A stretch of 18,441 bases of DNA from Deltaproteobacteria bacterium. GTDB lineage: Bacteria; Desulfobacterota; Syntrophia; Syntrophales; UBA5619. The DNA is taken from NCBI GenBank assembly GCA_021372695.1, contig JAJFTY010000167.1, positions 1 to 18,441 of the forward strand, written 5' to 3'. This document shows, piece after piece, positions 2,638-18,353 of the stretch (position 1 is the stretch's first letter; every line of letters starts with the position of its first letter). Below the pieces are notes generated by a model, which searched no databases, was not told where the DNA came from, and saw only the letters and a program-made list of their open reading frames with translations. Both the position numbers and the translations under genes were made by a program.

Positions 2638-2660
2638 GAAATCCGATTTCTCCTCTCCCT

Positions 2661-2718
2661 GACCAGGCCGGATTCTGTGCGATCCGGATCCCGCGGCTTG
2701 CGGGCAGCGCTCCTGGTC
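2661..2718 (-). other. Multi-branched intercistronic RNA structure before the VKOR gene
   Basis: The 90-nt gap between the aminopeptidase stop and the VKOR start can fold into a closed junction. An outer stem GACCAGG (2661-2667) pairs with CCTGGTC (2712-2718). It encloses two hairpins: CCGGAT/ATCCGG (2668-2673 with 2682-2687) and CCCGC/GCGGG (2690-2694 with 2700-2704). There is no T-run, so it does not look like an intrinsic terminator. It could protect a processed mRNA end or tune expression of the VKOR gene. The folding is by eye only. Confidence 0.4.
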
Positions 2719-2727
2719 AACGGCCTG

Positions 2728-6005: not shown

Positions 6006-6323
6006 ATGTCCTGGTTCTATCTGGTGATTGCCGGCATCTTCGAAACGGTCTGGGCCGTAGCCCTGAAGCAGACAGAAGGGTTTTCCCGGCTTTTACCTGC
6101 CGGTGTCACGGTCGTAGCGATGGCGCTGAGCCTCTATTTCCTCTCGCTGGCCCTCAAAGCGCTCCCCCTGGGAACGGCTTACGCCGTCTGGACGGGAATC
6201 GGAGCCGTGGGTGCGGCGGTCCTCGGGATGTTCCTCTTCGGCGAGTCCCATGCCCCGATGCGGATTGCGAGCATCCTGCTCATCGTTGCGGGAATTGCCG
6301 GCCTGCGCCTGACGACCTCATGA
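6006..6323 (+). CDS. sugE: SMR-family guanidinium exporter (Gdx/SugE)
   Basis: This 105-residue four-helix inner-membrane protein of the small multidrug resistance family belongs to the Gdx (formerly SugE) subtype, which exports guanidinium in exchange for protons as an antiparallel dimer. Residues known to matter in Gdx proteins are present at the expected positions: the proton/substrate-coupling E13, W16, S42, Y59 and W62. The strongly conserved [10 protein letters not shown] stretch (62-71) and GES (79-81) are also there. Overall similarity to E. coli SugE runs the whole length (MSW...VIAG...E..WAV.LK....FSRL). The ATG has TGAGGA 6 nt upstream. It has its own promoter and a structured leader. 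The next gene is 113 nt downstream. The subtype call is firm; the physiological substrate in this organism is inferred. Confidence 0.92.
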
Positions 6324-6388
6324 TGAGGCACGGGGATTCCAAGGGTGGACCGCCGGCAGGGGCAGGGCGAGCCGGCATGCCCGTTGGA

Positions 6389-6413
6389 CAACGAGCGTCT
6401 GAAAAGCTCGTTG
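6389..6413 (+). other. Hairpin between the Gdx exporter and the next gene
   Basis: CAACGAGC (6389-6396) and GCTCGTTG (6406-6413) form a perfect 8-bp stem with a 9-nt loop, 24 nt before the next start codon. There is no T-run, so it is probably an intercistronic stability or processing element rather than an intrinsic terminator. Confidence 0.35.
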
Positions 6414-6436
6414 GAACGGACGGAAGGGAAGGTGCG

Positions 6437-6874
6437 ATGAGCGAGAAGGTCGAGGCGGCGGTCGCCTGTTTCAAGGAGGGGTTCAGTTGTTCACAGTCGA
6501 TTCTCTGCACTTGGAGCGGGGAACTCGGCTTGGAAAGAGAGGTGGCGCTGCGGGCAGCGTCAGCATTCGGAGGGGGGATGGCAGGCCTCGGAGAGGTCTG
6601 CGGAGCCGTCACGGGCGCCCTGATGGCGATCGGCCTGAAACAAGGCCAGACGGAGGCGAAAGACAAGGAGACGAAAGAGAAGAACTATGCCCGCGTCCGC
6701 GATTTCACCGACCGCTTCCGCTCGCGCAACGGCTCCCTGCTCTGCCGGGAGCTCCTGGGATGTGATCTGACCACGCCGGAAGCGAGGGAGGCGGCGAAAC
6801 AGAAGGGACTCTTCACCGAGCGCTGCCCCGGCTTCGTCCGGGATGCGGCGGAGATTCTGGAGCAGATCCTGTGA
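6437..6874 (+). CDS. C_GCAxxG_C_C family putative redox-active protein
   Basis: This 145-residue cytosolic protein has the spaced cysteine pattern of the C_GCAxxG_C_C family: C11, C18 (FSCSQS), C24, C55 in EVCGAVTGALMAIGL, C103 and C109 (CRELLGCDL), and C130 (RCPGFV). The family is common in anaerobes and is presumed to bind metal or do redox chemistry, but no reaction is established. The ATG at 6437 gives a protein that begins with the family's usual N-terminal helix (xxAxxCFxxGFSCSQ) and has a purine-rich GGAAGGGAAGG upstream. The open frame further upstream overlaps the Gdx gene and is not real. It is probably co-transcribed with the flanking transporter genes. Confidence 0.85.
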   Translation: MSEKVEAAVACFKEGFSCSQSILCTWSGELGLEREVALRAASAFGGGMAGLGEVCGAVTGALMAIGLKQGQTEAKDKETKEKNYARVRDFTDRFRSRNGSLLCRELLGCDLTTPEAREAAKQKGLFTERCPGFVRDAAEILEQIL

Positions 6875-6962: not shown

Positions 6963-7835
6963 TTGAGCGGCCTCGCCCTGGCCATCGTCCTGGCCTCCGC
7001 CTTCCTGCATGCGGGCTGGAACTACCTCCTCAAGAAGAGCGACCGGAAGATCGTCTTCACCTGGTGGTTCGAACTGGTGGGCGCCGTCATCTTCCTTCCG
7101 ATGCTCGTCTACTTTCTCCCGGAGACGCCCATCCCGGCGAAAGGGTGGTTTTGCATCATTGCCAGCGCCGTCATCCACGCGGCCTATTTCACCTGCATGG
7201 GGTGCGCCTACCAGCGGGGCGACCTCTCGCTGGTCTATCCGCTGGCACGGGGATCGGGCCCCCTGTTCGTCCCGCTCCTGGCCGTGCTCCTCCTGGGGGA
7301 AGAGATCGCCCTGCTCGGCGGGATCGGGATATTCTTCATCGTCTGCGGCATCCACTGCATCCATCTGCGCTCTTTTTCGGGCGCCGCCTTTTGGGAACCT
7401 TTTGCCGCTCTGAGGGGCGGAGCTTCCCTGTGGGCTCTCTTCACGGGACTTGCCATCGCGTTCTACACGCTGGTGGACAAGGTCGGCGTGGGGCAGGTCT
7501 CACCGCCTGTCTACATCTACATCATGATGCTGATGACCTGGGTGCTCCTCACGCCGTGGGTGCTGATCCGCGAGAGGGATGGGCTGATGTCGGAATGGCG
7601 GCGCCACAAGGGCTCCATTATGGCCGTCGGGTTCCTGAGCGGATTCACCTATCTGATGATCCTCTTCGCCCTGACGATGAGCAAGGTCAGTTACGTAGCG
7701 GCGGTCCGGGAGGTGAGTATCGTCCTGTCGGCCTATTGCGGCGTTGCCTATCTCGGAGAAAAACACGGGCGGCAGAAACTGCTGGGCGCGGCGCTGATCT
7801 GCCTGGGGGTCGTCGCCATCGGCCTGAGCCGGTAG
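6963..7835 (+). CDS. EamA/DMT-family transporter
   Basis: This 290-residue, strongly hydrophobic protein has about ten membrane helices arranged as two EamA repeats (about 1-135 and 150-290), typical of 10-TMS drug/metabolite transporters. Each repeat ends with the usual pattern, LARGSGPLFVPLLAVLLLGE in the first and REVSIVLSAYCGVAYLGE in the second. The N-terminal AFLHAGWNYLLKK stretch is common in this family. The start is assigned to TTG at 6963, which has GGGGGG about 8 nt upstream, because no ATG or GTG fits the first helix better; a slightly different start is possible. Substrates of such proteins range from amino acids to nucleotides and cannot be predicted. The gene lies 88 nt behind the cysteine-rich protein and converges with the LysR gene. 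Confidence 0.85.
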   Translation: MSGLALAIVLASAFLHAGWNYLLKKSDRKIVFTWWFELVGAVIFLPMLVYFLPETPIPAKGWFCIIASAVIHAAYFTCMGCAYQRGDLSLVYPLARGSGPLFVPLLAVLLLGEEIALLGGIGIFFIVCGIHCIHLRSFSGAAFWEPFAALRGGASLWALFTGLAIAFYTLVDKVGVGQVSPPVYIYIMMLMTWVLLTPWVLIRERDGLMSEWRRHKGSIMAVGFLSGFTYLMILFALTMSKVSYVAAVREVSIVLSAYCGVAYLGEKHGRQKLLGAALICLGVVAIGLSR

Positions 7836-7894: not shown

Positions 7895-8767
7895 CTATTT
7901 CGAAAGGGTCCGCTGGAGCCTCTTCAGCGTGGATGTGAACACCCGCACCATGTTGGAGCTTCGGCGGTCTCTCAAAAAGATCAGATCGTAATCCACGTAC
8001 AGCTCCTCCTCGATTTCGGCCATGTGATACAGCCCCTCCTGGACATCCCGCTGGATGGTGAACTGGTGAAAGAACGCCCCACCCATCCCCAGCTGCACCA
8101 TATGCTCGATCGCCGGCGGGTTTTCGCAGGTGATGCTGTTGGTGATGGTCAGATTCCGTGCGGCGAACTCGCGGATGAGGTAATCCCGCGTCGCCGATCC
8201 CTCCTCGGGCAGAATGATCGGGTAGTCCGCCAATTGGTGAAGGCTGACCCGCGGGCCCATGTCCTCTTTCGAAATGAAGCACAATTTCGACTTCAGGATG
8301 GGGATCGAGACGATATTGTCCGGGTAAGGCAATCTTCCGATCACGGCCAGGTGGTATTCGTAATCCACCACCTTGTTGAGGCCCTCCTGGGACAAACCGG
8401 TGTAGATCTGGACCCTCACGTCGCTGTGTTTCTCGCGCATGGCGAGCAGAACTTCCGGCAAAACGTGATTTGAGATGTACGGCGTTGAGCCGATGATCAT
8501 GTTGGAGGTTTCGAAATTCTCCAGCTCCTTTTTCAGCTCGTTGATGAGGGAGAAGATCTTTTCGGCATGGCCGAAAACGATGTTTCCCTCTTCGGTCAGC
8601 TCGAAGGCTTTCTTGTTCCGTTTGATGAGCGGAACGGCGAAGCGCTTCTCCAGGGATTTCACCTGCATGCTGAGGGTCGGCTGGGAGACGTTCAACTGCT
8701 TCGCGGCCTGGGTGAAACTTTTTGCCTTCGCAACCTCGTAAAACGCCCTCAGATGGTTCACGTTCAT
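7895..8767 (-). CDS. LysR-family transcriptional regulator
   Basis: This 290-residue protein has the standard LysR layout. Residues 1-60 form an N-terminal winged helix-turn-helix with the recognition segment SFTQAAKQLNVSQPTLSMQV (17-36). Residues 60-88 form a linker helix, and about 90-285 a two-lobe substrate-binding-like effector domain. The effector is unknown. The ATG at 8767 puts the MNVNHLRAFYEVAK start in register with the family, with GGGAG upstream; the 34 extra codons of the longer open frame are unlikely. It is on the same strand as, and downstream of, the alcohol dehydrogenase and TRAP genes but is separated from them by a terminator and has its own promoter. It is the obvious candidate to control the divergent catabolic genes, though the distance to the 13.5-14.2 kb control region makes that an inference. 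Confidence 0.92.
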   Translation of the reverse strand: MNVNHLRAFYEVAKAKSFTQAAKQLNVSQPTLSMQVKSLEKRFAVPLIKRNKKAFELTEEGNIVFGHAEKIFSLINELKKELENFETSNMIIGSTPYISNHVLPEVLLAMREKHSDVRVQIYTGLSQEGLNKVVDYEYHLAVIGRLPYPDNIVSIPILKSKLCFISKEDMGPRVSLHQLADYPIILPEEGSATRDYLIREFAARNLTITNSITCENPPAIEHMVQLGMGGAFFHQFTIQRDVQEGLYHMAEIEEELYVDYDLIFLRDRRSSNMVRVFTSTLKRLQRTLSK

Positions 8768-8913: not shown

Positions 8914-8942
8914 TTCATACTTGGATGGTTTGGGCTTGTCAA
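8914..8942 (-). promoter_or_regulatory. Sigma70-like promoter for the LysR gene
   Basis: On the minus strand, TTGACA (8942-8937), a 17-nt spacer and TATGAA (8919-8914). It lies directly after the terminator of the alcohol dehydrogenase gene and would give a leader of about 140 nt, so the regulator is probably an independent transcription unit. Confidence 0.6.
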
Positions 8943-8969
8943 TAAAATTTGGCGTGAAGCCCGGGAGGC

Positions 8970-9012
8970 AAAAAAAAAGCCTCTTCGCGGACACCAGCCG
9001 CTCCAGAGGCTT
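8970..9012 (-). terminator. Intrinsic terminator after the alcohol dehydrogenase gene
   Basis: On the minus strand, AAGCCTCT (9012-9005) pairs with AGAGGCTT (8984-8977), with an inner GCGG/CCGC stem. The run of T residues extends to 8970 (nine in a row). It is 24 nt past the dehydrogenase stop codon. Confidence 0.85.
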
Positions 9013-9036
9013 CCCAGGAATTCTGGGTTTTGGGGA

Positions 9037-10131
9037 TCAGGGCTTCACGGCCACGCGGATCGTCTTCCCCGATTCGGCGATCTTCAAGCCGGCGTTGATT
9101 TCGTCGAGGGAGACCCTTTCGCCCACGATCAGGCCGAAGGGGAAGCGGTTCCGGGTCATCCGAAGGAAATCGACCGCTTTCTGCAGATGGACCGTATCGT
9201 AGTTGTGGACGCCCCTGATCGTGAGGCATCTGAAGACGATATCCGAGGCATCGCAGTTGAAAACGGCGCCGGCGAAAGCATTACCGATTTCGACCAGGCG
9301 TCCGCCCGTGCGCAGGCATTTGAGGCCGAGCGGGAGCAGGGGGGGGAATCCCGCCAGCTCCATGACGGCATCGACGCCGAACCCGCCCGTGAGCTCCTTG
9401 ACCGTGTCGATCACTTCCTCGTCGGTGAGTTCCTTCGAATTGATCGTATCGGTGGCGCCGAATTTTTTCACGAAATCGAGCCTGTGCTCCATGACATCGG
9501 ACACGATGACCCGGCGGCATCCATAGTGGCTCGCCAGGGCAGCCGCGTAGACGCCCAGAGCCCCGGCCCCCTGGATGAGCACGTTTTCGAAAGGCCGGAC
9601 TGCGATGGCGTCCCAGCCGGCCACCACCGTCGCCAGCGCGCAGTTCGCCGGTGCGGCCTCCTCATCGGTCAGTTCGTCCGGAATCCGGATGACGCACGTG
9701 CCCGGGGTGATGTAGCAATATTCCGCGAACCCTCCCACGAAATGGGGCCAATCGGCGCAACTGTCGTGGCCGTATTTCTTCAGGTGGCTGCACTTCATCA
9801 TCAGTCCCTTTTCCCGGCAGTAGTAGCATTTCCCGCAGTTGTCCATGATGGTCCATGTGATGCGGTCACCCGCGCGCAGGGGGGTGTTGCCCGAATCCAT
9901 CGTCACGCCCGCACCGAGTTCGACGATTTTGCCCACGATCTCGTGGCCCAGAATGATCGGGAGCGGTGATTTTCTTCTCCCCGTCCAGGTATGCAGATCC
10001 GAGCCGCAGATGGTGCAGCAGGTGATCCTGACCAGCATGCATCCGGGACCCACTTCAGGCAAGGGATACTCCCGGATCTCCAACTCCTTCTTGGCCTCCG
10101 TCATGACGGCGGCCCTTCCCGTCTTGTTCAT
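9037..10131 (-). CDS. Zinc-dependent MDR alcohol dehydrogenase
   Basis: This 364-residue medium-chain NAD(P)-dependent dehydrogenase probably interconverts an alcohol and an aldehyde or ketone. Features include the catalytic-zinc region C42 in ICGSD, GHE at 62-64 and a later cysteine, C164 (APANCA). A structural-zinc cluster is formed by C99, C102, C105 and C114, and a Rossmann glycine pattern by QGAGALG (187-193). The stretch around KYGHD, GGFAEY and APANCALATVVAG resembles the MDR subgroup often annotated as phosphonate-utilisation-associated, but I see no phosphonate genes here. The start has GAGGT upstream. It lies 139 nt after dctM, behind two large hairpins, and ends at a good terminator. 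In context it may supply the aldehyde used by the acylating dehydrogenase encoded divergently. Confidence 0.88.
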   Translation of the reverse strand: MNKTGRAAVMTEAKKELEIREYPLPEVGPGCMLVRITCCTICGSDLHTWTGRRKSPLPIILGHEIVGKIVELGAGVTMDSGNTPLRAGDRITWTIMDNCGKCYYCREKGLMMKCSHLKKYGHDSCADWPHFVGGFAEYCYITPGTCVIRIPDELTDEEAAPANCALATVVAGWDAIAVRPFENVLIQGAGALGVYAAALASHYGCRRVIVSDVMEHRLDFVKKFGATDTINSKELTDEEVIDTVKELTGGFGVDAVMELAGFPPLLPLGLKCLRTGGRLVEIGNAFAGAVFNCDASDIVFRCLTIRGVHNYDTVHLQKAVDFLRMTRNRFPFGLIVGERVSLDEINAGLKIAESGKTIRVAVKP

Positions 10132-10153
10132 CCTGACACCTCAAATTGATGAA

Positions 10154-10194
10154 AAGAATATGGGTTGGCCGGACCTCGGCCAACCCATATTCTT
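10154..10194 (-). terminator. Perfect 18-bp hairpin between dctM and the alcohol dehydrogenase
   Basis: Bases 10154-10171 (AAGAATATGGGTTGGCCG) are perfectly complementary to 10177-10194, with a 5-nt loop. On the minus strand the stem ends in ATTCTTTTC, so it can act as an intrinsic terminator (the base of the stem is AT-rich in both directions). It lies only 22 nt ahead of the dehydrogenase start, so it probably limits read-through from the transporter genes. Confidence 0.6.
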
Positions 10195-10232
10195 GCGATT
10201 AACGTTTCCACCCGATCTACCTTGCCCCGCAT

Positions 10233-10260
10233 GGCGCGTTCCAACCAAAGGGAACGCGCC
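10233..10260 (-). other. Second intercistronic hairpin after dctM
   Basis: GGCGCGTTCC (10233-10242) and GGAACGCGCC (10251-10260) form a perfect 10-bp stem with an 8-nt loop, 10 nt after the dctM stop codon. No T-run follows on the minus strand, so it is more likely an mRNA 3'-end protecting element that works with the 18-bp hairpin next to it. Confidence 0.45.
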
Positions 10261-10270
10261 GATCGATTTT

Positions 10271-11587
10271 TCATCCGAACAGATATTGCGGCAGCCACAG
10301 GGCAATCTGCGGGAACATGTAGATAAGGGCCACGCCCAACCCCTGCAATCCCATGAACGGCATCATCCCCAGATAGATATCCTTCAGCTCCCACTCCGGC
10401 ATGATCGCCTTCAGGTAGTAGGCCGACAGGGCCACCGGAGGGGAGAGCCAGCAAGTCTGCAGCGTGACGGCCAGAACGATGGAGAACCAGATCATGTCGG
10501 TATGGAGACCCTGGAGAACGGGGAGGAAGATCGGGACGATGATGACCACGATCGGAATCCATTCCAGAGGCCACCCGAGGACGAAGCAGGCGACCAGGAT
10601 GCCGACGATGAAGATAAACGGCGGCAGGTTCCAGGACAGGAGCGCATCGGCGATGAACTTGGGTGTTCCCATGGAGGAAAAGACCGCCCCCATGAACGTG
10701 GACGCCGCCAGGAGGATCATCACCATGCTTGTCGTCTCGGCGGTCCGGAAAGCCGAATCCTTGAGGATTTTGAAGGTGAGGCGTTTGTTGCCCGCCGTCA
10801 CCGCCACCGCGCCCGCGCAGCCCAGGGCCGCCCCTTCCGTCGGCGTGGCCAGGCCGGAGAGGATGGAGCCCAGCGTGACGAGAATGAGAACGGCCGGCGG
10901 TACGAGACCGAAGAAAAACTCGCGCGCGATGTAGCCCCTGGAAACGTTGAGTTCCTCATCGGAGAGGGGGGGACCCAACTGGGGATTGATCATCGTCCGT
11001 ACCATCGTGTAGACAATGTAAAGGGTGGCGAGCATGATCCCGGGGATGATGGCGGCTGCGTAGAGCCGCGCAACGGAGACCTGGAACACCGGTCCCATGA
11101 CCACCAGCATGACGCTGGGGGGAATCAGAATGCCCAGAGTCCCGCCCGCGCAGATCGTTCCGGCGGACATCCCCGTATCGTAACCCGACTTTTTCATGAC
11201 CGGGGCGGACATCAGACCGATGATGGTGACCGATGCGCCGACGATGCCGGTGGCTGCGGCGAACAGCGTTGCCGTGAAGATGGTTCCCAGGTAGAGGGAG
11301 CCCCTGAGCCGACCGGAGAGGAGCTGCAACGCATGGAACAGACGTTCCATGAGTCCGGCACTTTCCAGGACGCAGCCCATGAAGGTAAAGAGGGCAACCG
11401 CCGCCAGGACGGTGTCCATCATCGTTCCCCAGAACGAAAAGGTCATCAAATGGAACACCTTGGGTCCCAACCCGATATAACCGAATATCGCGCCGAGGGT
11501 GATCAGCGTGAAGGATATGGGAAACCCGATGCATATAAAGACGAATAGGCCGCCCAAAAGGATCAGGCCGTACACTTCCAAGCTCAT
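10271..11587 (-). CDS. dctM: TRAP transporter large membrane subunit (DctM family)
   Basis: This 438-residue integral-membrane protein with about 12 hydrophobic helices forms the substrate-translocating subunit of a sodium-driven TRAP uptake system. Family signatures include the N-terminal LLGGLFVFICIGFPISFTL helix, GALFAAATGI-like FAAATGIVGAS (about 108-118), GGTLGILIPPSVMLV (about 147-161), TPTEGAALG (about 247-255) and the WLSPPVALS segment near residue 380. Length is as expected. The ATG at 11587 has GGAGGC 6-7 nt upstream. It follows dctQ by 82 nt, and dctP/dctQ/dctM are in the usual order. The substrate is decided by DctP and is not known. Confidence 0.93.
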   Translation of the reverse strand: MSLEVYGLILLGGLFVFICIGFPISFTLITLGAIFGYIGLGPKVFHLMTFSFWGTMMDTVLAAVALFTFMGCVLESAGLMERLFHALQLLSGRLRGSLYLGTIFTATLFAAATGIVGASVTIIGLMSAPVMKKSGYDTGMSAGTICAGGTLGILIPPSVMLVVMGPVFQVSVARLYAAAIIPGIMLATLYIVYTMVRTMINPQLGPPLSDEELNVSRGYIAREFFFGLVPPAVLILVTLGSILSGLATPTEGAALGCAGAVAVTAGNKRLTFKILKDSAFRTAETTSMVMILLAASTFMGAVFSSMGTPKFIADALLSWNLPPFIFIVGILVACFVLGWPLEWIPIVVIIVPIFLPVLQGLHTDMIWFSIVLAVTLQTCWLSPPVALSAYYLKAIMPEWELKDIYLGMMPFMGLQGLGVALIYMFPQIALWLPQYLFG

Positions 11588-11669
11588 TTACGCCTCCTGC
11601 ACAAAATAGTGCACTCTTTCTATAAAAATGCGACTCCAGAGGTCATGCCGCAGATCGGCAACATCCGGC

Positions 11670-12209
11670 TCAGGTCACTTCGCGGGCCGCCGACTTGTAG
11701 CGGTGATCCACGCCCGTCACCAATGTCTGGATGCATTTGATCAGTTCCGAGATTCCCTGGAGCACGATCAGGAAGCCGCTCACGGGAATGACCAATTTGT
11801 AGGGGTAAGCCGGGGGTCTCCAGGTCGTCATCAGTTCTTCCTTGAGCGCCCAGGATTCGGAGAAGAAGTCCCAGCTCAGCCAGATGAACAAAACCATGCC
11901 CGGGAGGAAGAGGAAGAGATAGCAGATTGCATCCACCCAGCACTGCGTCTTCGTGGACCAGTTTCCGTAGAAAAAGTCGGTCCGGATATGCTGTCCCAGA
12001 TAGAGGGTCATGGCACCGGCGATGAAAAAATGGGTGCCGTAAAAGATGGTGGACATATCCACTGCCCAGAGCGTGGGTTTGTAGACATAGCGGATGAGAA
12101 CCTCATAGACCAAGCATGCCGCCATCGGGATGATCAGCCAGGATATGGCTTTTCCCGACCAGAGGCTGATCTTGTCAATTGTTTTGGTTATCCGATCAAG
12201 ATGGTTCAT
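11670..12209 (-). CDS. dctQ: TRAP transporter small membrane subunit (DctQ family)
   Basis: This 179-residue protein has four predicted membrane helices (about 19-38, 53-73, 92-115 and 139-159). Typical DctQ features are VYEVLIRYVY (about 34-43) and W-x-x-D-x-S (about 48-53). It partners DctM in the membrane; its precise role is a scaffold needed for transport. The ATG at 12209 was chosen because GGAG lies about 9-10 nt upstream. The longer reading would start with TTG inside that ribosome site. It lies 211 nt after dctP, behind a very strong hairpin, and 82 nt before dctM. Confidence 0.9.
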   Translation of the reverse strand: MNHLDRITKTIDKISLWSGKAISWLIIPMAACLVYEVLIRYVYKPTLWAVDMSTIFYGTHFFIAGAMTLYLGQHIRTDFFYGNWSTKTQCWVDAICYLFLFLPGMVLFIWLSWDFFSESWALKEELMTTWRPPAYPYKLVIPVSGFLIVLQGISELIKCIQTLVTGVDHRYKSAAREVT

Positions 12210-12318
12210 ATCTAAATACTCCAAAAATATGGCAGCTTACAGGGAGCCGGCCATTTAGGGGTGATAAAATGACCGCTTGTCAAACGACCGGCGGGCATTG
12301 CCATCCAAAACGACTGCC

Positions 12319-12364
12319 CGGCCGGCCGATCCATTTCCTTGGTTCCGGAAGGATCGGCCGGCCG
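12319..12364 (-). other. Perfect 14-bp hairpin between dctP and dctQ
   Basis: CGGCCGGCCGATCC (12319-12332) is perfectly complementary to 12351-12364, and the 18-nt loop has an extra TTCC/GGAA pairing. It starts 57 nt after the dctP stop codon. There is no T-run on the minus strand. Such stems after binding-protein genes commonly stabilise the upstream message, so that the binding protein is made in excess over the membrane subunits. Confidence 0.5.
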
Positions 12365-12420
12365 AGGCAAGACTCTTGGCAACGGTCGGACCCGTCGGCA
12401 GACGCGCCCGTCCGTTGCGT

Positions 12421-13536
12421 TTACTTCACCTCCGCGGCCCCGGAGATCAGGTCCATCAGTTTGTTGGTCTCTCTGGTGTAGGGAACCACCAGATGAGCAT
12501 ATGCGCGCTGCGAATCGAGGACCTTCTTGAAGAAGGGATCTTTTGCCTCGAACTTGGCGAGCACCTTCTTGGACGATTTGATGAAGGCCTCCGAGTAACC
12601 CTTGGGGGCGTCGAACAGTTTGACACCCTTTTCCTTGGTCAGGATATTGAGGGCCTTGGCGTTTTCCTCCACGAAGAACATCATGCCCTCGAGAATCGAC
12701 TGGGTGCATGCGGTCTGGATAATCGCCTGGAGGTCAGGGGGGAGAGCGCGCCAGGCCTGGCCGTTGATCATGATATCCTGGATGCCGATGGCCTGGTGGA
12801 GCCCCTGGAGGGAGTAGTTTTTGGCAACGTCATAGAGACCGAGCTTCAGGTCGCTCGCCGTGTTGATCCACTCGCCGCCGTCGATGACCCCCCGCTCCAG
12901 GGAGGGAATGAGCTCCTGGCCGGCTACGTTCACCGGGATACCGCCCATGTCCTTCAGAACGTCGGACGAGAGGCCGGAGGACATACGGAACCGCATTTTC
13001 AGGTAATCATTGAGTGTCTTGGGCGCCTTCTTGGCCCAGCCGAAAGCCTCGGGGCCGTCCGGCGCGATCAGGAAGGGCATGACATCGGCCTTGAGGATCT
13101 TCGTGTAATATTCCACGTAGAGTTCCCGCCCTCCGCCGTTCATGTACCAGGAAAGGTGGTTCATCACGTCCAGACCGCTTCCGGCGCCGCCGAGCGGGGA
13201 GCTGAAGAGGCTGCCGCTGGGGTTTTTGCCCATGGAATAATGGGTCCACCACTGTCCGCATTCGATGATGCCCTTGTTGACGCCGTCGAGGATTTCAAAG
13301 GGGTTCACGATGGCGCCGCTGGCCAGAACTTCGATCTTCAGCCTTCCGCCCGACATCTTGTCGATGCTGGCGACCAATTTGTTCAACAGTTCAATCTGAG
13401 GGGCTCCTGCCGGATGCGCGCTCTGGAGTTTCCATTTGATCGGTCCTGAAGGTGCAAATGCTGCCTGCGACAGATCCGCCAGACCGAACACGCCAAAAAA
13501 TGCTGCGATCACTAAAAATCCAACCACTTTCTTCAT
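12421..13536 (-). CDS. dctP: TRAP transporter periplasmic substrate-binding protein (DctP family)
   Basis: This 371-residue exported solute receptor has a signal peptide at residues 1-25 (MKK, hydrophobic core VVGFLVIAAFFGVFG, likely cleavage at SQA). The mature part has the DctP-family order: the KWKLQSAHPAG start, MSGGRLKIEVLASGAI, and the carboxylate-binding region around KMRFRMSSG. Next come PVNVAGQELIPSLERGVIDGGEW and KLGLYDVAKNY. The last two segments resemble the 2-oxo-acid/mannitol-chloroaromatic (TakP-like) branch more than the C4-dicarboxylate branch. The substrate is probably an organic acid anion, but this is inference. The ATG at 13536 has a near-perfect GGAGGAG ribosome site. 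It is the first gene of the minus-strand arm of the divergent locus. Confidence 0.93.
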   Translation of the reverse strand: MKKVVGFLVIAAFFGVFGLADLSQAAFAPSGPIKWKLQSAHPAGAPQIELLNKLVASIDKMSGGRLKIEVLASGAIVNPFEILDGVNKGIIECGQWWTHYSMGKNPSGSLFSSPLGGAGSGLDVMNHLSWYMNGGGRELYVEYYTKILKADVMPFLIAPDGPEAFGWAKKAPKTLNDYLKMRFRMSSGLSSDVLKDMGGIPVNVAGQELIPSLERGVIDGGEWINTASDLKLGLYDVAKNYSLQGLHQAIGIQDIMINGQAWRALPPDLQAIIQTACTQSILEGMMFFVEENAKALNILTKEKGVKLFDAPKGYSEAFIKSSKKVLAKFEAKDPFFKKVLDSQRAYAHLVVPYTRETNKLMDLISGAAEVK

Positions 13537-13716
13537 AGATCTCCTCCTAAACTTTGGGCTAGGAAAATTCTCTCAACCGTGACCGGACCTGCTGTTTTCG
13601 CCTCACCGATTTCCGGGACGCATCGCCATCGCAGGTCCTGACCGCTGCCGTCAGCGGGTTTCAAAAACTACCTTCTGTGGAATATTGACCGGATCACCTC
13701 CTCTCGCCTGTGAGAG

Positions 13717-13753
13717 ATGCGAATGATAACGCATACTCATCCAATGGCCATTG
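13717..13753. promoter_or_regulatory. Pair of dyad symmetries on the dctP side
   Basis: ATGCG-N8-CGCAT spans 13717-13734, and the perfect 12-bp palindrome CAATGGCCATTG spans 13742-13753, about 20 bp apart centre to centre. They lie about 180-215 bp upstream of dctP. Size and spacing suit binding sites for a dimeric regulator. The protein is unknown; LysR boxes usually have a T-N11-A core, which neither shows clearly. Confidence 0.35.
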
Positions 13754-13811
13754 ATGGCGTGAGCATCGCCCTATCGGGGGAGTGAGTCAAGTAGAAAAAA
13801 TTGATACACCT

Positions 13812-13826
13812 ATCGTTTTAAACAAT
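13812..13826. promoter_or_regulatory. 15-bp near-perfect palindrome, possible operator
   Basis: ATCGTTTTAAACAAT is symmetric about its central T with one mismatched pair. It resembles operators of dimeric helix-turn-helix regulators. The function and the bound protein are not known. Confidence 0.3.
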
Positions 13827-13921
13827 GGTGTTTCGAAATCGGCGTCTTTTCCCCGCAAATCTGCGGCGGAGGAGGTGTCCAGGGTCCGGGGCGGCCGCGT
13901 CAACATAAGGATTTACTATGG

Positions 13922-13973
13922 AAGTATAATTATTATCAGTTTGACTTTCCACGGGAGCTCTTTCTATGATGCC
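13922..13973 (+). promoter_or_regulatory. Promoter module, copy 1
   Basis: An AT-rich UP-like stretch leads into TTGACT (13941-13946), an 18-nt spacer and TATGAT (13965-13970), a good sigma70 promoter toward the citrate synthase-like genes. Bases 13922-13947 match 14036-14061 at 22 of 26 positions, and similarity continues to the -10 region (CTCTTT, ATGCC), so this is one of two copies. The predicted start is near 13977, giving a leader of about 260 nt. Confidence 0.55.
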
Positions 13974-14022
13974 TTCAACGCGGTAACCTTGAATTTGTGT
14001 CGGCGCCGCCGAGAATGATAAC

Positions 14023-14068
14023 CACTTATAATCGAAAATATGATTATTATTATTTTGACTTATAAGTG
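14023..14068. promoter_or_regulatory. Spaced inverted repeat CACTTATAA / TTATAAGTG
   Basis: Perfect 9-bp arms lie at 14023-14031 and 14060-14068, separated by 28 nt. The right arm begins in the last base of the second TTGACT (-35) and runs downstream of it; the left arm lies just upstream of the AT-rich stretch. This looks like a two-site operator that could be bridged by a regulator dimer or tetramer, or a cruciform. It is AT-rich, unlike its surroundings. Confidence 0.45.
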
Positions 14069-14087
14069 ATCGCTCTTTTACCATGCC
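14036..14087 (+). promoter_or_regulatory. Promoter module, copy 2
   Basis: Equivalent to copy 1 with TTGACT (14055-14060), an 18-nt spacer and TACCAT (14078-14083). The -10 is weaker than in copy 1, and its -35 overlaps the inverted-repeat arm at 14060-14068, so this copy may need an activator. The predicted start is near 14090, about 150 nt before the first gene. Confidence 0.4.
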
Positions 14088-14237
14088 GCTCGAACAATCA
14101 AGGACGCAATTGGCTGCCGGCGGCGCGGTCCTGATGGGCGGGATGGCCGCCGATGGGATGGCGGAGCGCCTAGGGCAGGGAGAAGTTTAAAACTGGGATT
14201 GAAGGGACAGAACGAGGACTATTGGGAGGAGTTTAGA

Positions 14238-15131
14238 ATGGACAGACAACCGTTGTTCAAGAGGAAGACGGCCCTTTCGTACAAGACGGAGGAGAAAACC
14301 GTCGTTCGGGGCTATAACGTGAGCGATCTGGCGGAGGCGGGCTATACGTTTTACGATATGCTCTTCATCCTGTTCCAGAACCGTATCCCCGCCGAGAACG
14401 AGGCAGACATGCTGCGTTATGAGACGGGCGAGTTCCTGGAGCACTCGATGTCGCCGTCGGCGGCGTCGGCGATCGCCGTGATGGGCGGCCGGCCGAACCT
14501 GCCGGCGGCAATCGCGGCGGCGGTGATGACCTTCGGGTCGGCGCACGGTCCGGGGGCGGCGCACGGGTACATGATGCACAAGTACATCGAACGGGCGCGC
14601 GTCGAGGGGAAGACGCTCGAAGAGATGGGCAAGATCCTGGTGGACGAGTACGTGGACGCGGGACTGGCGGTCATGGGGATGGGCCAGCCGCAGCACCTGG
14701 ACGGCGACCCGCGGGCGCAACCGACGCACATCAAGCACGAGCAGCTCTGCAGCGGCGTCTATCTGAAGTTGCAGTGGGCGATCGAGAAGCATTTCAACGC
14801 CCGCCGGAAGAAGGAGGGCAAGGCATTCGTCGCGGTGAACATGATCGGCGCCGGCAATACGGCCCTGGCGGAGCTGGGATTTTCCCCGAATGCGGCCTGG
14901 TGCATCGGGTGCGTCTGCCGCGGTTTCAGCTGCGCGGCGCATGCGACCTACACGATGAAGAAGGGGCGGGCTTGGGCGGCATCGAAGCGCGAACCCATGG
15001 TCCAGATGCTGGATCTTTCCATGATCAAGTACATCGGTCCCGATAACCGTCCGGTGCCGAGCCAGGCCGAGAGAGAGGAATACGCCCGCAAGCAGAAAGA
15101 GGAAGGAGAATACAAGAAATGGATAATCTAG
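14238..15131 (+). CDS. Citrate synthase/citryl-CoA lyase-like protein, subunit A
   Basis: This 297-residue protein has the citrate synthase fold as judged from ordered landmarks: VRGYNVSDLAEAGYTFYDML (23-42), LPAAIAAAVMTFG with SAHGPGAAHG (88-110, active-site His region), VMGMGQPQHLDGDPRA (145-160), and GNTALAELGFSPNAAWCIG (206-224). In citryl-CoA lyase-type enzymes the third landmark reads like PGFGHPxHxxxDPR. Here the catalytic His position is Q150, while H153 and D157-P158-R159 remain. The usual Asp of the NVDGA-like motif is absent (NMIGA, 201-205). Residues 222-232 form an unusual C-x2-C-x-C-x4-C cluster. The C-terminal tail, YIGPDNRPVP, is shared with the next gene. The ATG at 14238 has GGAGG 8 nt upstream. 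It probably forms a heteromer with subunit B. Substrate unknown. Confidence 0.75.
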   Translation: MDRQPLFKRKTALSYKTEEKTVVRGYNVSDLAEAGYTFYDMLFILFQNRIPAENEADMLRYETGEFLEHSMSPSAASAIAVMGGRPNLPAAIAAAVMTFGSAHGPGAAHGYMMHKYIERARVEGKTLEEMGKILVDEYVDAGLAVMGMGQPQHLDGDPRAQPTHIKHEQLCSGVYLKLQWAIEKHFNARRKKEGKAFVAVNMIGAGNTALAELGFSPNAAWCIGCVCRGFSCAAHATYTMKKGRAWAASKREPMVQMLDLSMIKYIGPDNRPVPSQAEREEYARKQKEEGEYKKWII

Positions 15132-16114
15132 ACGATCCGAGACTCAATTTCAATTACCGGACCAGGGAATGGGGCACGGTTCCGTTCGATGAAAATCGCG
15201 CCCGTTTCCAGTGGGTGTCCGAAGTGGCCTATAAGAACGTTCACCGCATCGTGTCGCGGGGATACGACACGACGGAGCTGGTGGAGCATGGGTACGGGCT
15301 GACGGACGTTCTCTTCGTCGATTTTCAGGCGCGGATTCCGCTGGTCGAAGAAGACAAGATGCTCAACTACGTCATGGTCTGCATGTTCGAAGACGGCCTT
15401 TCCTCGCCGGCGAATATCGCACGGATCGTCGCCAGCGGCAAGACCATCCTGACCCAGGCCGCCGGCTCTTCGATCCTGGCTTTCGGCCATGCCTACGGCG
15501 CCTACCAGGAGATCGGAAAGCTGATGGACGGCATCCTGGCCCGTCAGGCGAAGGAGGGCAAACCGCTCGCCGAGGTGGTCGAGGCGGTGGTCAAGACGAA
15601 ACTGAACGACCCGGCCCTGGGGATTTCCGGACTGATGCTGAAGGACCCGATGGCCAAGCGGATGATCGCCCGGGCCGAGAAGCTGGGCGTTGCGGGCAAG
15701 TATGTCTCGCTGATGAAGGAGATGGTGAAGGCGGCGCAGAAGTTGAGCAAGGAACCGGTGGACATCGATCTCCTTGGCGCGACCGCCGCGGTGATGTTCG
15801 ACATCGGCTTCACGCCCGAGGCGACGTGGGGGATCCTTTCGGTGACGCGTGCGTTTGCGACGGGAGCCCACTACTGCGAGGAGATGGAGCGGGAGGAGCC
15901 GGTGCGTCTCGGCCAGACGCTGACGCCCAAGGCGTGGTATGACGGGCCGGAAGACAGGCCGGTGCCGACGCTCGAGGAGCGCAAGAAGGTGGCCAAGGCC
16001 ATGGAGGCCCAGACGCCCGAGGAGTGGAAGAAGACCTTCCTCGAGCGGCAGAAGATCAAAGGTTCCGGCTGGGCCATCGTCGAGGAGATCGACGACCCCA
16101 AACGGAAAATCTGA
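15119..16114 (+). CDS. Citrate synthase/citryl-CoA lyase-like protein, subunit B
   Basis: This 331-residue paralogue of the preceding protein is read from an ATG inside its 3' end (13-nt overlap, different frame), with GGAAGGAG upstream, so the two are translationally coupled. Landmarks of the fold are SRGYDTTELVEHGYGLTDVL (46-65), EDGLSSPANIARIVASG (91-107), AFGHAYGAYQ (121-130, first His), GISGLMLKDPMA (168-179) and VDIDLLGATAAVMFDIGF (214-231). In place of the GFGHPxH...DPR loop it has SGLMLKDPM, so the central catalytic His and the following Arg are gone. A DxD (D215/D217) sits where the catalytic Asp region would be. The tail contains YDGPEDRPVPTLEER, like subunit A, plus a charged extension. 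It probably pairs with subunit A; whether B is catalytic or structural is open. Confidence 0.72.
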   Translation: MDNLDDPRLNFNYRTREWGTVPFDENRARFQWVSEVAYKNVHRIVSRGYDTTELVEHGYGLTDVLFVDFQARIPLVEEDKMLNYVMVCMFEDGLSSPANIARIVASGKTILTQAAGSSILAFGHAYGAYQEIGKLMDGILARQAKEGKPLAEVVEAVVKTKLNDPALGISGLMLKDPMAKRMIARAEKLGVAGKYVSLMKEMVKAAQKLSKEPVDIDLLGATAAVMFDIGFTPEATWGILSVTRAFATGAHYCEEMEREEPVRLGQTLTPKAWYDGPEDRPVPTLEERKKVAKAMEAQTPEEWKKTFLERQKIKGSGWAIVEEIDDPKRKI

Positions 16115-16123
16115 TGGTTCAGG

Positions 16124-16164
16124 GATCCCCGCCCCGGTCGTTTCCCAGGCAGAGGGTGGGGATC
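16124..16164 (+). other. Hairpin between subunit B and the aldehyde dehydrogenase
   Basis: GATCCCCGCCC (16124-16134) pairs with GGGTGGGGATC (16154-16164) through 11 bp with one G-T pair and a 19-nt loop, starting 10 nt after the subunit B stop. No immediate T-run follows, so partial attenuation or RNA processing between the genes is more likely than full termination. Confidence 0.4.
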
Positions 16165-16215
16165 ATTCTATAGCGGCTTGAGGTTCTTTTCTTTTTGGAG
16201 GTAAGGGGGAACGAT

Positions 16216-17607
16216 ATGGAAGACAATATTCAGGAAATGTACAAAAAGGCGCGTGCGGCATTCAAGGTCGTCGAGTACTGGCCGCAGGAGAAGGTCGACG
16301 AAATGGTTCTGGCTGTAGGCTGGGAGCTGCAGAAGGCGGAGACGGCCGATGAGCTGGCCCGTCTGGCCGTGGAAAAGTCGGGTCTCGGCGTCTACGAGGA
16401 CAAGGTCCACAAGATCGGTACGAAGGTCCGCGGTACGCTCTACGACCAGATCGGCATCAAGACCTGCGGCCTGGTCAGCGAGGACAAGGCGAAGGGGATC
16501 CGGACGTACGCCAAGCCCATCGGCGTGATCGCGAACGTCGTTCCCTGCACCAACCCCGAGTCTACGGTCTGCTGCATCGCCCTTTCGACGCTGAAGACCC
16601 GCAATGCGATCATCTGCTCGCCCCATCCCCGCACGGAGCTGGCGACGAATGCGACGGTGGACCACATCCGCAAGGCGCTCGCGAAGGTTGGCGCCCCGGT
16701 GGATCTCGTTCAGTGCATCCGGAAGACGAGCAACGAAAAGACACAGGAGTTGATGGCGAACTGCGACTATGCCGTGGCCACGGGCGGCGCGGCGCTGGTG
16801 AAGGTGGTCTACGGGGCGGGCGTCCCGGCGCAGACGGTGGGGGCCGGAAACGTGATCTCCATCATCGATTCCACGATCAAGGACATCCCCGGGGTCGCCT
16901 TCCGGCTCCGGAAATCCAAGACGGCCAACAACGCGGCCTCCTGCTCCTCGGAGAATGCGGTTGCCATCGAGGAGGTCATCTTCGACAAGATGATGGCGGC
17001 CCTCAAGGCCGAAGGGGGCTATCTCTGCACGACCGCAGAGCGTGAGATCCTCCGCAAGACGATGTGGCCCGACGGCCACACGCTGAACCGGGAGGTCGTG
17101 GCGAAGAACGCCCTGTTCATCGCGAACCTGGCAGGCCTCAAGGTCCCGGCCGACACGAAGATGCTGATGGTCATGGGCGAGAAGATCGGCCCGGAGGACC
17201 GCTTCTCCGGCGAGAAGCTCTCTCCTGTGCTGACCGTCTGGAAGTGGAACGATTTCGACGAGATGCTCGACCGCATGGAGAAGATCCTGAAGTTCTCCGG
17301 CGAGGGGCACTCCGTGAACATCCAGACGTCCCTCGACGAGCGGATGCACAAGCTCGGCCTTCGGGCGAACACGAGCCGCGTCGTCTGCAACATGGGCCAC
17401 ACCGAGGCCAACAGCGGCGGCTGGACGAGCCATCTGGGCTTCACGGACACGCTGGGCTGCGGGACCTGGGCGGGAAACATCAGCTGCGAGAACATCAACT
17501 GGAAGCAGTTCCTCATGTACACCCGCGTGGCCGTGCCCGTGGCGAACTACCAGCCCTCCGATGAAGAGCTCTTCGGCGCCTATCTGAAGAAGTACGGCAG
17601 GGACTGA
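16216..17607 (+). CDS. CoA-acylating aldehyde dehydrogenase (SauS/EutE-like)
   Basis: This 463-residue enzyme of the acylating aldehyde dehydrogenase branch converts an aldehyde, CoA and NAD(P)+ to an acyl-CoA, or the reverse. Landmarks are IGVIANVVPCTNPESTV (102-118, the PxTNP motif of acylating enzymes), the nucleotide-binding ATGG (188-191), and the active-site cysteine C243 in ASCSSEN. The C-terminal TLGCGTWAGNISCENI (412-427) is also typical of this group. The SCSSEN version resembles sulfoacetaldehyde/succinate-semialdehyde-type dehydrogenases more than plain acetaldehyde enzymes, but the substrate cannot be fixed. There is no microcompartment targeting peptide and no shell genes nearby. 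The ATG at 16216 was chosen over an upstream TTG that lies in the ribosome-site region GGAGGTAAGGGGG. It probably supplies or consumes the acyl-CoA handled by the citrate synthase-like pair. Confidence 0.88.
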   Translation: MEDNIQEMYKKARAAFKVVEYWPQEKVDEMVLAVGWELQKAETADELARLAVEKSGLGVYEDKVHKIGTKVRGTLYDQIGIKTCGLVSEDKAKGIRTYAKPIGVIANVVPCTNPESTVCCIALSTLKTRNAIICSPHPRTELATNATVDHIRKALAKVGAPVDLVQCIRKTSNEKTQELMANCDYAVATGGAALVKVVYGAGVPAQTVGAGNVISIIDSTIKDIPGVAFRLRKSKTANNAASCSSENAVAIEEVIFDKMMAALKAEGGYLCTTAEREILRKTMWPDGHTLNREVVAKNALFIANLAGLKVPADTKMLMVMGEKIGPEDRFSGEKLSPVLTVWKWNDFDEMLDRMEKILKFSGEGHSVNIQTSLDERMHKLGLRANTSRVVCNMGHTEANSGGWTSHLGFTDTLGCGTWAGNISCENINWKQFLMYTRVAVPVANYQPSDEELFGAYLKKYGRD

Positions 17608-17690: not shown

Positions 17691-18353
17691 ATGGCCATGA
17701 TCCGGGCGGTATTCTGGGACAACGACGGGGTTCTCGTCGACACGGAAAAACTCTACTATCAGGCAACCCGAGAGCTTATGCTCCAGGCGGGGGTCACGCT
17801 GACGCCCGCGCTTTTCCAGCAGATCTCCCTCTTCGAGGGGAGGAGCGCCTTCGATCTGGCTGCGGAGAAGGGAGTCCCCCGGGAGGTGATCGACCGCCTT
17901 CACGAAGCAAGGAACCGGCGCTACACGGAGCTGCTCGCGGGCGGCGTCCGCATCCTGGAAGGGGTCGAGGAGACCCTGGGTTCGCTCCGGGGCAGGGTGA
18001 TTCAGGCGATCGTGACCAGTTCCCGGAGAATCCATTTCGACGCGATGCACGTTCGGACCGGGCTCCCGGCCTTTTTCGATTTCATCCTGGCCCGGGAGGA
18101 TTACCGGCTTTCCAAGCCGGACCCGGAACCGTACCGGCTCGCCATGGAGAAAAGCGGCTGCGGCCCGGAGGAGTGTCTCGTCGTGGAAGACTCGGAACGG
18201 GGGCTCCGGGCGGCCATCGCGGCCGGCATCCGCTGCATCGTCGTTCCGAACGATCTGACCCGGAAGGCCGCCTTCGCCGGGGCCTGGCGGATCCTTCCCT
18301 CATGCCGGGCGATCCCCGGGGAGATCGAACGGCTGGGCGGGATGAAGGGATGA
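17691..18353 (+). CDS. HAD-superfamily phosphatase/phosphomutase-like hydrolase (subfamily IA)
   Basis: This 220-residue cytosolic HAD hydrolase has all four motifs: motif I DNDGVLVDT with nucleophile D10 and acid/base D12, motif II VTSS (108-111), motif III K142 in SKPDPEPY, and motif IV VVEDSERGLRAA (164-175). An alpha-helical cap of about 65 residues follows motif I, as in beta-phosphoglucomutase and phosphoglycolate phosphatase relatives. The sugar or other phosphate substrate cannot be read from sequence. The start is either the ATG at 17691 or the in-frame ATG at 17697; the ribosome site is weak for both. It lies just 14 nt behind a strong terminator with no obvious promoter between, so its transcription start is unclear. 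Its stop overlaps the next start as ATGA. Confidence 0.87.
   Translation: MAMIRAVFWDNDGVLVDTEKLYYQATRELMLQAGVTLTPALFQQISLFEGRSAFDLAAEKGVPREVIDRLHEARNRRYTELLAGGVRILEGVEETLGSLRGRVIQAIVTSSRRIHFDAMHVRTGLPAFFDFILAREDYRLSKPDPEPYRLAMEKSGCGPEECLVVEDSERGLRAAIAAGIRCIVVPNDLTRKAAFAGAWRILPSCRAIPGEIERLGGMKG

Follow-up and report, generated by a model that had tools for sequence, protein, structure and literature searches.

A putative C2 phosphonate catabolic cluster combining a citrate synthase-fold protein pair with an acylating aldehyde dehydrogenase in a Deltaproteobacteria bacterium and its relatives

Introduction

To our knowledge, only a handful of routes that cut the carbon–phosphorus (C–P) bond are known. 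Those listed in one source are phosphonatase, the phosphonoacetate and phosphonopyruvate hydrolases, C–P lyase and the oxidative PhnY*/PhnZ route (PMC9381506). PhnW converts 2-aminoethylphosphonate (AEP) to phosphonoacetaldehyde (PMC10590968), PbfA forms the same aldehyde from (R)-1-hydroxy-2-aminoethylphosphonate (R-HAEP), and oxidation of 2-hydroxyethylphosphonate (HEP) would yield it directly (PMC12366243). Here we describe a locus on contig JAJFTY010000167.1 of a Deltaproteobacteria bacterium (assembly GCA_021372695.1), analyzed as one stretch of 18,441 nucleotides (hereafter the window), in which two citrate synthase-fold genes, CS-A and CS-B, and an acylating aldehyde dehydrogenase (ALDH) diverge from a TRAP importer, an MDR alcohol dehydrogenase (ADH) and a LysR-type regulator. 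Comparison with related loci gives strong support to a phosphonate catabolic role, which we regard as very probable.

The locus and its relatives resemble the PhnW/PbfA + PhnX route in their feeders, PhnW and PbfA, and in the phosphonoacetaldehyde hub, but no genome with CS-A carried PhnX over its cut-off (0/27), and ALDH with CS-A/B was found instead. As in the PhnW–PhnY–PhnA route, phosphonoacetaldehyde would be oxidized, and a PhnA-like gene lay downstream in 3/51 CS-A loci; the dehydrogenase of the cluster, however, is of the coenzyme A (CoA)-acylating type, with 24 of 636 bits to phosphonoacetaldehyde dehydrogenase (TIGR03250), and PhnA was over its cut-off in only 1/27 genomes. The best named relative of ALDH was SauS, the acylating sulfoacetaldehyde dehydrogenase, whose substrate is likewise a C2 aldehyde that bears an acidic group, although the match (NF047625, 477 bits) stayed below the cut-off of 600 and the neighbors in the cluster handle phosphonates. 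CS-A shares its family and one catalytic His with citryl-CoA lyase, the citryl-CoA lyase module of ATP-citrate lyase and citrate synthase, but CS-A/B are two linked partners in which the other catalytic residues are lost. Finally, some CS-A proteins carry a fusion domain like that of the phosphoenolpyruvate (PEP) mutase-cytidylyltransferases of the Fom1 type, CS-A itself belonging to PF00285 and not to PF13714.

The name phosphonoacetyl-CoA was found in the open-access literature only in PMC12871164, where it is a predicted intermediate of flavophos biosynthesis. Open-access papers joining phosphonates with citrate synthase, citryl-CoA lyase, methylcitrate synthase or an acylating dehydrogenase did not describe the present gene set, as judged mostly by title and the start of the abstract, and the word citrate did not occur in the main texts, as available, of PMC12366243, PMC10590968, PMC9381506 and PMC6697681. 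The initial annotation had not recognized the set as a characterized pathway, and within this open-access scope, which does not prove absence from print, no paper describing it was found.

Results and Discussion

Proposed pathway

In the proposed pathway, the TRAP importer would take up a hydroxy-phosphonate, most simply HEP, which the HpnZ-like ADH would oxidize to phosphonoacetaldehyde; relatives would enter this hub from AEP through PhnW or from R-HAEP through PbfA. The ALDH would then turn phosphonoacetaldehyde, CoA and NAD(P)+ into phosphonoacetyl-CoA, and a heteromer of CS-A, as catalytic subunit, and CS-B, as partner subunit, would cut its C–P bond. Water or some other acceptor would receive the phosphoryl group, and protonation of the acetyl-CoA enolate, which His116 would hold, would leave acetyl-CoA, with phosphate as the second product, directly or after the action of HAD phosphatases. 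The comparisons given below show the gene content and its conservation, the company of phosphonate genes, the lack of known C–P enzymes over cut-off in most CS-A genomes tested and the lost residues, whereas what the ALDH and the TRAP importer bind, the heteromer and the C–P-cleaving step are inferred. Phosphonoacetyl-CoA is a likely intermediate. That CS-A/CS-B would be the C–P-cleaving enzyme is the best explanation on present evidence, with the chances about evenly balanced, and a C2 phosphonate catabolic cluster in which CS-A/B dephosphonylates phosphonoacetyl-CoA is likewise the best explanation of the whole, to which we give about even confidence. Somewhat more tentatively, the pair may represent a new class of C–P enzyme that passes the phosphoryl group to water, phosphate or a nucleotide.

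If true, an acyl-CoA route with a citrate synthase-fold pair would add a mechanism of C–P bond cutting, would explain the use of phosphonates by anaerobes without PhnX or C–P lyase, and would provide a marker of phosphonate use overlooked by surveys of phnX, phnA and phnJ. Anaerobes would use C2 phosphonates for carbon and energy with all carbon kept as acetyl-CoA, and the energy of the C–P bond might be conserved. The likely substrates are common natural C2 phosphonates, in uncultured anaerobic bacteria, and proteins now labeled citrate or 2-methylcitrate synthase would become a testable enzyme with a named proposed substrate.

Conserved gene set and phosphonate neighbors

Forty-five related loci (L001–L045) emerged when genome contigs were scanned, by record title mostly from Deltaproteobacteria, Desulfobacterales and Syntrophales, together with two from Gemmatimonadota, three of Planctomycetes type, one from SAR324 and one from Prolixibacteraceae. 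The window, these loci and five others (L109, L113, L114, L120, and L123) formed a 51-locus set from which repeats of the same contig were dropped, and in which a gene was counted as present when tblastn matched at least a quarter of the query at an identity threshold of 34–60%, depending on the gene. L043 and L044 start at CS-B, CS-A having been cut off by the contig start. CS-A was uncommon, occurring in 2/297 genomes of a phylum sample, in 11/155 and 25/389 genomes of two classes, and in 1/199 and 1/52 genomes of two further phyla, where the counts centered on G001, G003, G006, G013, and G014 include the center genome.

CS-B adjoined CS-A in 48 of the 49 loci bearing CS-A, the sole exception (L027) being a contig that ends 55 bases past CS-A; this adjacency is not due to chance. 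Of the 35 loci that offer 3 kb or more downstream, 33 have the ALDH, the two lacking it being L013 and L123. In L109, a CoA-transferase gene (PF01144; 6313 onwards) followed CS-B, then an open reading frame (ORF), with no ALDH on the 8.5-kb contig, so that the CoA thioester seems to be the common factor, as would fit the substrate proposed for the pair.

A PhnW-type gene was present in 30/51 loci (25 with a new-type query, six with a classic one, and one by both), and the two new-type proteins tested exceeded TIGR03301 with 413 and 415 bits (cut-off 360.8). The new-type gene lay between CS-B and ALDH in all 17 loci showing all three. PbfA occurred in 7/51 loci; two of three copies tested exceeded NF049939 (655 and 710 bits; cut-off 525), and the third, cut by the contig end, reached 513 bits. 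The HpnZ-like ADH was present in 16/51 loci, with the L041 copy exceeding TIGR03366 at 343.3 bits. In NCBIfam, TIGR03366 is named putative phosphonate catabolism associated alcohol dehydrogenase and TIGR03340, the best match of the EamA permease of the window, phosphonate utilisation associated membrane protein. Altogether, at least one feeder (PhnW, PbfA or the HpnZ-like ADH) was present in 41/51 loci and some phosphonate marker in 45/51. No window protein alone exceeded a phosphonate cut-off in family-profile scans, so it is the relatives that decide the assignment; a gene forming phosphonoacetaldehyde is likewise found through them, the window having only the HpnZ-like ADH, 11 bits under its cut-off and with a predicted substrate. 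Because feeders of known function converge on phosphonoacetaldehyde, this aldehyde is the likely substrate of the ALDH.

L001 has two PbfA-type genes, one at 15993 (minus strand; 76% identity by tblastn) and one at 17585–18967 (plus strand) over the NF049939 cut-off. A further recurrent gene, c28, was present in four of the 51 loci (L001 at 18983–20152, L011, L031, and L032) and adjoins PbfA in L001 and L032; its L001 copy had no NCBIfam match at 1e-15, and the L032 copy reached 32 of 800 bits to carboxynorspermidine synthase.

The three TRAP components, DctP, DctQ, and DctM, are all in the window; SmoM (2hzk) and a protein that binds ketoacids (7ug8) are among the solved proteins closest to DctP in sequence. 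The expectation that the trio of CS-A, CS-B, and ALDH would be linked to TRAP and MDR genes elsewhere was borne out, DctM being present in 7/51 loci and the MDR gene in 16/51. All seven DctM loci also have the HpnZ-like ADH, and the TRAP substrate is therefore probably the alcohol HEP. An EamA permease was found in 21/51 loci, the window included, at 34% identity or more (18 at 49% or more and three at 34–35%).

Phosphate-transporter genes were detected by tblastn in 9/51 loci versus 1/12 control loci, and those of L004, L008, L009, and L123 were confirmed as PF01384. In L008 and L009 the transporter and a PF01865-type partner are operon members placed between CS-B and ALDH, and in L004 they lie downstream of CS-B, after which the contig ends. 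Phosphate looks like a product of the cluster.

The initial annotation had proposed that an imported acid or sulfonate passes by way of an alcohol and an aldehyde into an acyl-CoA, which is then condensed or cleaved. The skeleton of import, oxidation of alcohol to aldehyde, an acyl-CoA made by the ALDH and action of the pair was kept; the acid or sulfonate substrate was not, since the recurrent neighbors are phosphonate genes (PhnW, PbfA, HpnZ-like, phn_DUF6-like), which make phosphonoacetaldehyde the most likely aldehyde. As a whole, the reading of a carboxylate or sulfonate taken to an acyl-CoA by a normal enzyme is extremely unlikely: it draws on SauS as best named relative of ALDH, but the SauS cut-off was not reached, the named recurrent neighbors are phosphonate genes and catalytic residues of citrate synthase are missing. 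The narrower sulfonate or isethionate reading was set aside on the SauS score and on the nameable neighbors; no sulfonate gene was recognized among the annotated neighbors, where no search was aimed at sulfonate genes.

Co-occurrence with PhnW and known C–P enzymes

In the class of 389 genomes, in which the scans scored the best four to five CS-A and PhnW candidates per genome, PhnW was over its cut-off in 22/25 genomes with CS-A versus 33/364 without (Fisher p 4.9e-18, not corrected for relatedness). For 27 of the first 45 loci the genomes were tested further, and PhnW was over its cut-off in 24 of them, versus 0/14 control genomes. Phosphonatase PhnX (TIGR01422) exceeded its cut-off in none of these 27 genomes, PhnA (TIGR02335) in one, with one more at 402 of 407.6 bits, and PEP mutase (TIGR02320) in three, with two more near 300 of 320 bits; PhnJ (PF06007) was found in one.

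For comparison, 11 control genomes were hand-picked from the 33 PhnW-positive, CS-A-free genomes for a classic high-scoring PhnW and contigs with room. Phosphonatase over its cut-off lay near PhnW in 10/11 control loci (305–342 bits; cut-off 220), and CS-A, CS-B, and ALDH were not seen in any of the 11 stretches. PhnI was found in two of the stretches, the eleventh, which has PhnH as well, and one of the other ten. The contrast between 0/27 CS-A genomes and 10/11 controls (Fisher p 2.3e-8) joins two search methods and hand-picked controls. With no PhnX over its cut-off in the CS-A genomes tested and PhnX in ten of the 11 CS-A-free PhnW loci, CS-A/B with ALDH, by gene content, takes the place held elsewhere by PhnX. 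The genome (G796) of a twelfth control locus, L141, has CS-A on another contig; the locus itself carries ALDH, the HAD gene HADc4 and a PhnA-like gene. In four CS-A-free genomes (G625, G630, G694, and G755), the PhnW matches lay in frames of 619–646 aa, perhaps transaminase fusions.

A 2013 survey reports no phosphonatase in the sulfate reducer genomes then known, and PhnA in 18/95 (PMC4046663). The first statement seems no longer true for the whole group, since PhnX loci turned up here among class-mates of a Deltaproteobacteria metagenome-assembled genome (MAG).

The CS-A/CS-B pair

Conserved residues were counted in 189 CS-A proteins, 43 from loci (window included) and 146 from databases with overlap kept; the L004 copy (broken frame) and one ALDH (L017, internal stop) were left out of the residue counts, and numbering follows a 310-aa reading of CS-A from 14199. 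H116, which aligns with the first catalytic His and which we take to hold the thioester enolate, was kept in 189/189. At position 163, presumably the site of the ketone-binding His (H320-equivalent), Gln replaced His in 188/189, with His once, and at position 216, presumably that of the deprotonating Asp, all 189 had Ile, Val or Met and none Asp. CS-B kept none of the three catalytic residues, with Tyr or Phe at 126, S170, and L219 in 42/42. Further residues invariant in CS-A (H122, H166, D170, and H177; 189/189) could bind a metal or the phosphoryl group.

Both proteins fall in PF00285 but lack the full His-His-Asp set of citrate synthase and citryl-CoA lyase, and both stayed below the curated cut-offs of these families. 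With CS-A lacking two of three catalytic residues and CS-B all, an ordinary condensation or cleavage is unlikely for the pair, and an ordinary citryl-CoA lyase was dropped on the lost residues and unreached cut-offs. The CS-A residues fit an enzyme that would stabilize an acetyl-CoA enolate without removing a proton or binding a ketone; retention of the enolate His only would fit the dephosphonylation of phosphonoacetyl-CoA. Citryl-CoA lyase 6hxp was the nearest solved structure for both proteins and also the top Foldseek match of both, at TM-scores of 0.3–0.5 with weak AlphaFold models.

The same residues bear on another chemistry, in which CS-A/B would couple the carbanion of phosphonoacetyl-CoA to a carbonyl and expel phosphate in a Horner–Wadsworth–Emmons reaction, giving an unsaturated acyl-CoA. 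A C–C-forming fold and the missing Asp would suit such a reaction, the phosphono group acidifying the alpha-CH, as would the phosphate transporters nearby; but the ketone-binding His is Gln in 188/189 and the annotated recurrent neighbors included none recognizable as an enzyme for an unsaturated product, which leaves this chemistry highly improbable.

Cytidylyltransferase fusions

Four CS-A proteins (P0060, P0066, P0068, and P0078, the last with a different, longer N-terminus) are fused to a PF01467 cytidylyltransferase domain. That of P0066 is 55–62% identical to the domain of three confirmed PEP mutase fusions (PF01467+PF13714), and further matches, not all confirmed, were at 48–63% identity. 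By domain content, the fusions tie CS-A to C–P chemistry. The fusion genes were not found in the 297, 155, 389, 199, and 52 genomes of the samples above, where free CS-A, or cytidylyltransferase domains lying in different frames, surfaced instead.

These proteins bring in the possibility that the route runs in reverse, as a PEP mutase-independent synthesis in which CS-A/B would form the C–P bond on acetyl-CoA, the ALDH would form phosphonoacetaldehyde from the product by reduction, and AEP or HEP, made by PhnW or ADH, would be attached by a cytidylyltransferase. The lack of a PEP mutase over its cut-off in 24/27 CS-A genomes speaks for it, but C–P bond formation on acetyl-CoA would be steeply uphill, as follows from the thermochemistry of PEP mutase, and the complementary occurrence with PhnX also counts against it. 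In Fom1, the cytidylyltransferase domain makes cytidine monophosphate-HEP, and such a domain is carried by 23.6% of PEP mutases (PMC6697681), which lends the reverse route some weight through the four fusions, whereas the importers and the LysR regulator fit catabolism, as does PbfA, a degradative enzyme (PMC12366243). On balance, synthesis by the cluster is very unlikely. If the catabolic pathway with dephosphonylation of phosphonoacetyl-CoA is true, the fused forms might still serve a synthesis of phosphonates free of PEP mutase.

HAD and PhnA-like proteins

The ALDH has the Cys (C250) of an SCSSENAV motif in 31/31, which we take to be the catalytic Cys of acylating aldehyde dehydrogenases, and so carries the acylating-type motif. 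Acetaldehyde dehydrogenase models matched it as well, at 310 and 350 bits, in both cases below the cut-off. The HAD gene of the window (HAD16) has counterparts in 6/51 loci and HADc4 occurs in 24/51; among the 28 loci with at least 5 kb downstream, five show neither at the identity thresholds applied. TIGR01422 was not among the best 25 NCBIfam matches of HAD16 in the window, nor among the best 24–25 NCBIfam families for HAD16 and HADc4, and HAD as a phosphonatase was not supported by the NCBIfam matches.

Several observations weigh against dephosphonylation of phosphonoacetyl-CoA by CS-A/B, or against the phosphonate assignment behind it. The window has no PhnW or PbfA and its HpnZ and phn_DUF6 matches are below cut-off; no phosphonate marker was found in six of the 51 loci, of which L004, L027, and L029 are short or cut, and L011, L022, and L026 have room. 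L013 (with masked stretches), L109, and L123 show no ALDH next to the pair, the genome of the last carrying it on another contig, and the genomes of the relatives are nearly all MAGs and possibly incomplete. The AlphaFold models of CS-A and CS-B are weak (pLDDT 61 and 62), and the fusions hint at synthesis of phosphonates rather than breakdown in the organisms that have them. Other enzymes might also do the cutting: HAD genes accompany many loci, a PhnX-like HAD occurs in 3/51 (the one scanned reaching 119 of 220 bits to TIGR01422), weak phosphonatase-family matches of at most 118 of 220 bits occur in 14/27 CS-A genomes, and L001, L002, and L009 have a phosphonoacetate hydrolase-like gene 4–7 kb downstream of the CS-A start. 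Lastly, PhnA was over its cut-off in 0/58 genomes, alike in the groups with CS-A and with PhnW but no CS-A, so that its absence proves nothing; a mutual exclusion of CS-A and PhnA was discarded for this lack of contrast.

The recurrent HADs, the PhnX-like HAD and the acetaldehyde dehydrogenase matches would suit a cluster in which a HAD is an unrecognized phosphonatase, the ALDH an ordinary acetylating enzyme, and CS-A/B a user of acetyl-CoA. The absence of TIGR01422 from the best HAD matches and the five roomy loci with neither HAD make this quite unlikely, and the most conserved genes would be left without a purpose. The PhnA-like protein of L001, L002, and L009 could itself cut a C–P bond; the L001 copy (14897–15985) reached 223 of 407 bits to PhnA and 184 bits to the solved phosphonoacetate hydrolase 1ei6. 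On this basis CS-A/B might only remove or transfer the CoA of phosphonoacetyl-CoA, after which a PhnA-like protein or a HAD (given the 24 and six loci with HADc4 and HAD16) would cut phosphonoacetate, the PhnA-like gene being the chief evidence for this reading. This too is unlikely: PhnA-family matches at E <= 1e-20 occur in only 7/27 CS-A genomes, neither HAD is seen in five of the 28 loci, and losing the CoA bond would make the acylation pointless compared with plain PhnY.

A shorter PhnA-like family (about 360 aa, about 175–223 of 407 bits where scored) has members close to PhnW or CS-A in a number of anaerobes, as in L001, L002 (8769), L009 (16823), L141 (3223), L139 (4061), and L140 (3884), and is possibly a separate C–P enzyme.

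Gene organization and control region

All genes named in the initial annotation are present in the window with open frames (Table 1), dctP-dctQ-dctM-adh-lysR on the minus strand and the two coupled PF00285 genes with ALDH on the plus strand. The control region of about 700 bp proved to be 701 bp long, whereas a unit beginning at 8914 leaves out the LysR gene, and the EamA permease and the HAD hydrolase, both recurrent in relatives, extend it further. The start of CS-A is most likely the ATG that follows GGAGGAG rather than an upstream TTG, and CS-B overlaps it by 13 bases, with ~31% identity between the two proteins. The helix-turn-helix of the LysR protein begins at an internal ATG, the ORF to 8869 being probably over-extended, and its second-best NCBIfam match is TIGR03339 (phn_lysR, the LysR of AEP catabolism; 138 of 341 bits). 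No Rfam family matched the window at its gathering score.

Table 1. Features of the 18,441-nucleotide window.
Feature	Position	Strand	Remarks
DUF711 protein	52–1413		PF05167, 633 bits; function not assigned
Run of weakly thioredoxin-like protein, M29 aminopeptidase, DsbC-like protein, polyprenyl synthetase	1696–5617	−	
Small multidrug resistance-type protein and C_GCAxxG_C_C redox protein	6006–6874		PF00893 (first protein); directly upstream of EamA permease
EamA-type permease	6963–7835	+	PF00892; TIGR03340 (phn_DUF6) 166.5 bits, cut-off 288
LysR-type regulator	7895–8767	−	PF00126 + PF03466
MDR alcohol dehydrogenase, HpnZ-like	9037–10131	−	TIGR03366 316.9 bits, cut-off 328.1
TRAP large permease DctM	10271–11587	−	PF06808, 240 bits
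TRAP small permease DctQ	11670–12224	−	PF04290, 79 bits
TRAP solute-binding protein DctP	12421–13536	−	PF03480, 108 bits
Divergent control region	13537–14237		701 bp between dctP and CS-A
Conserved element AGTCAAGTAGAAAAAATTGATA	13785–13806	−	TTGACT hexamer after A/T-rich stretch; putatively promoter-like, towards dctP
A/T element + TTGACT (13941–13946) + TATGAT (13965–13970)	13925–13970	+	Putatively promoter-like, towards CS-A
A/T element + TTGACT (14055–14060), second copy	14042–14063	+	Putative function as for the first copy
CS-A, citrate synthase-fold protein	14238–15131	+	PF00285 52.5 bits, cut-off 27
CS-B, diverged CS-A paralogue	15119–16114	+	331 aa; PF00285 30.2 bits, cut-off 27
Acylating aldehyde dehydrogenase (ALDH)	16195–17607	+	True start probably ATG 16216
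HAD-family phosphatase-like protein (HAD16)	17691–18353	+	PF13419, 103 bits; accessory

In an alignment of five loci, the divergent region was poorly conserved apart from islands, two A/T-rich copies with TTGACT pointing to CS-A and one TTGACT after an A/T stretch pointing to dctP. The AGTCAAGTAGAAAAAATTGATA element was strongly kept in all five, with few substitutions in L001 and L007, and TATGAT was kept in three of the five and altered in L007 and L005. The TTGACT islands shared by both arms suggest that these may be under one common control protein.

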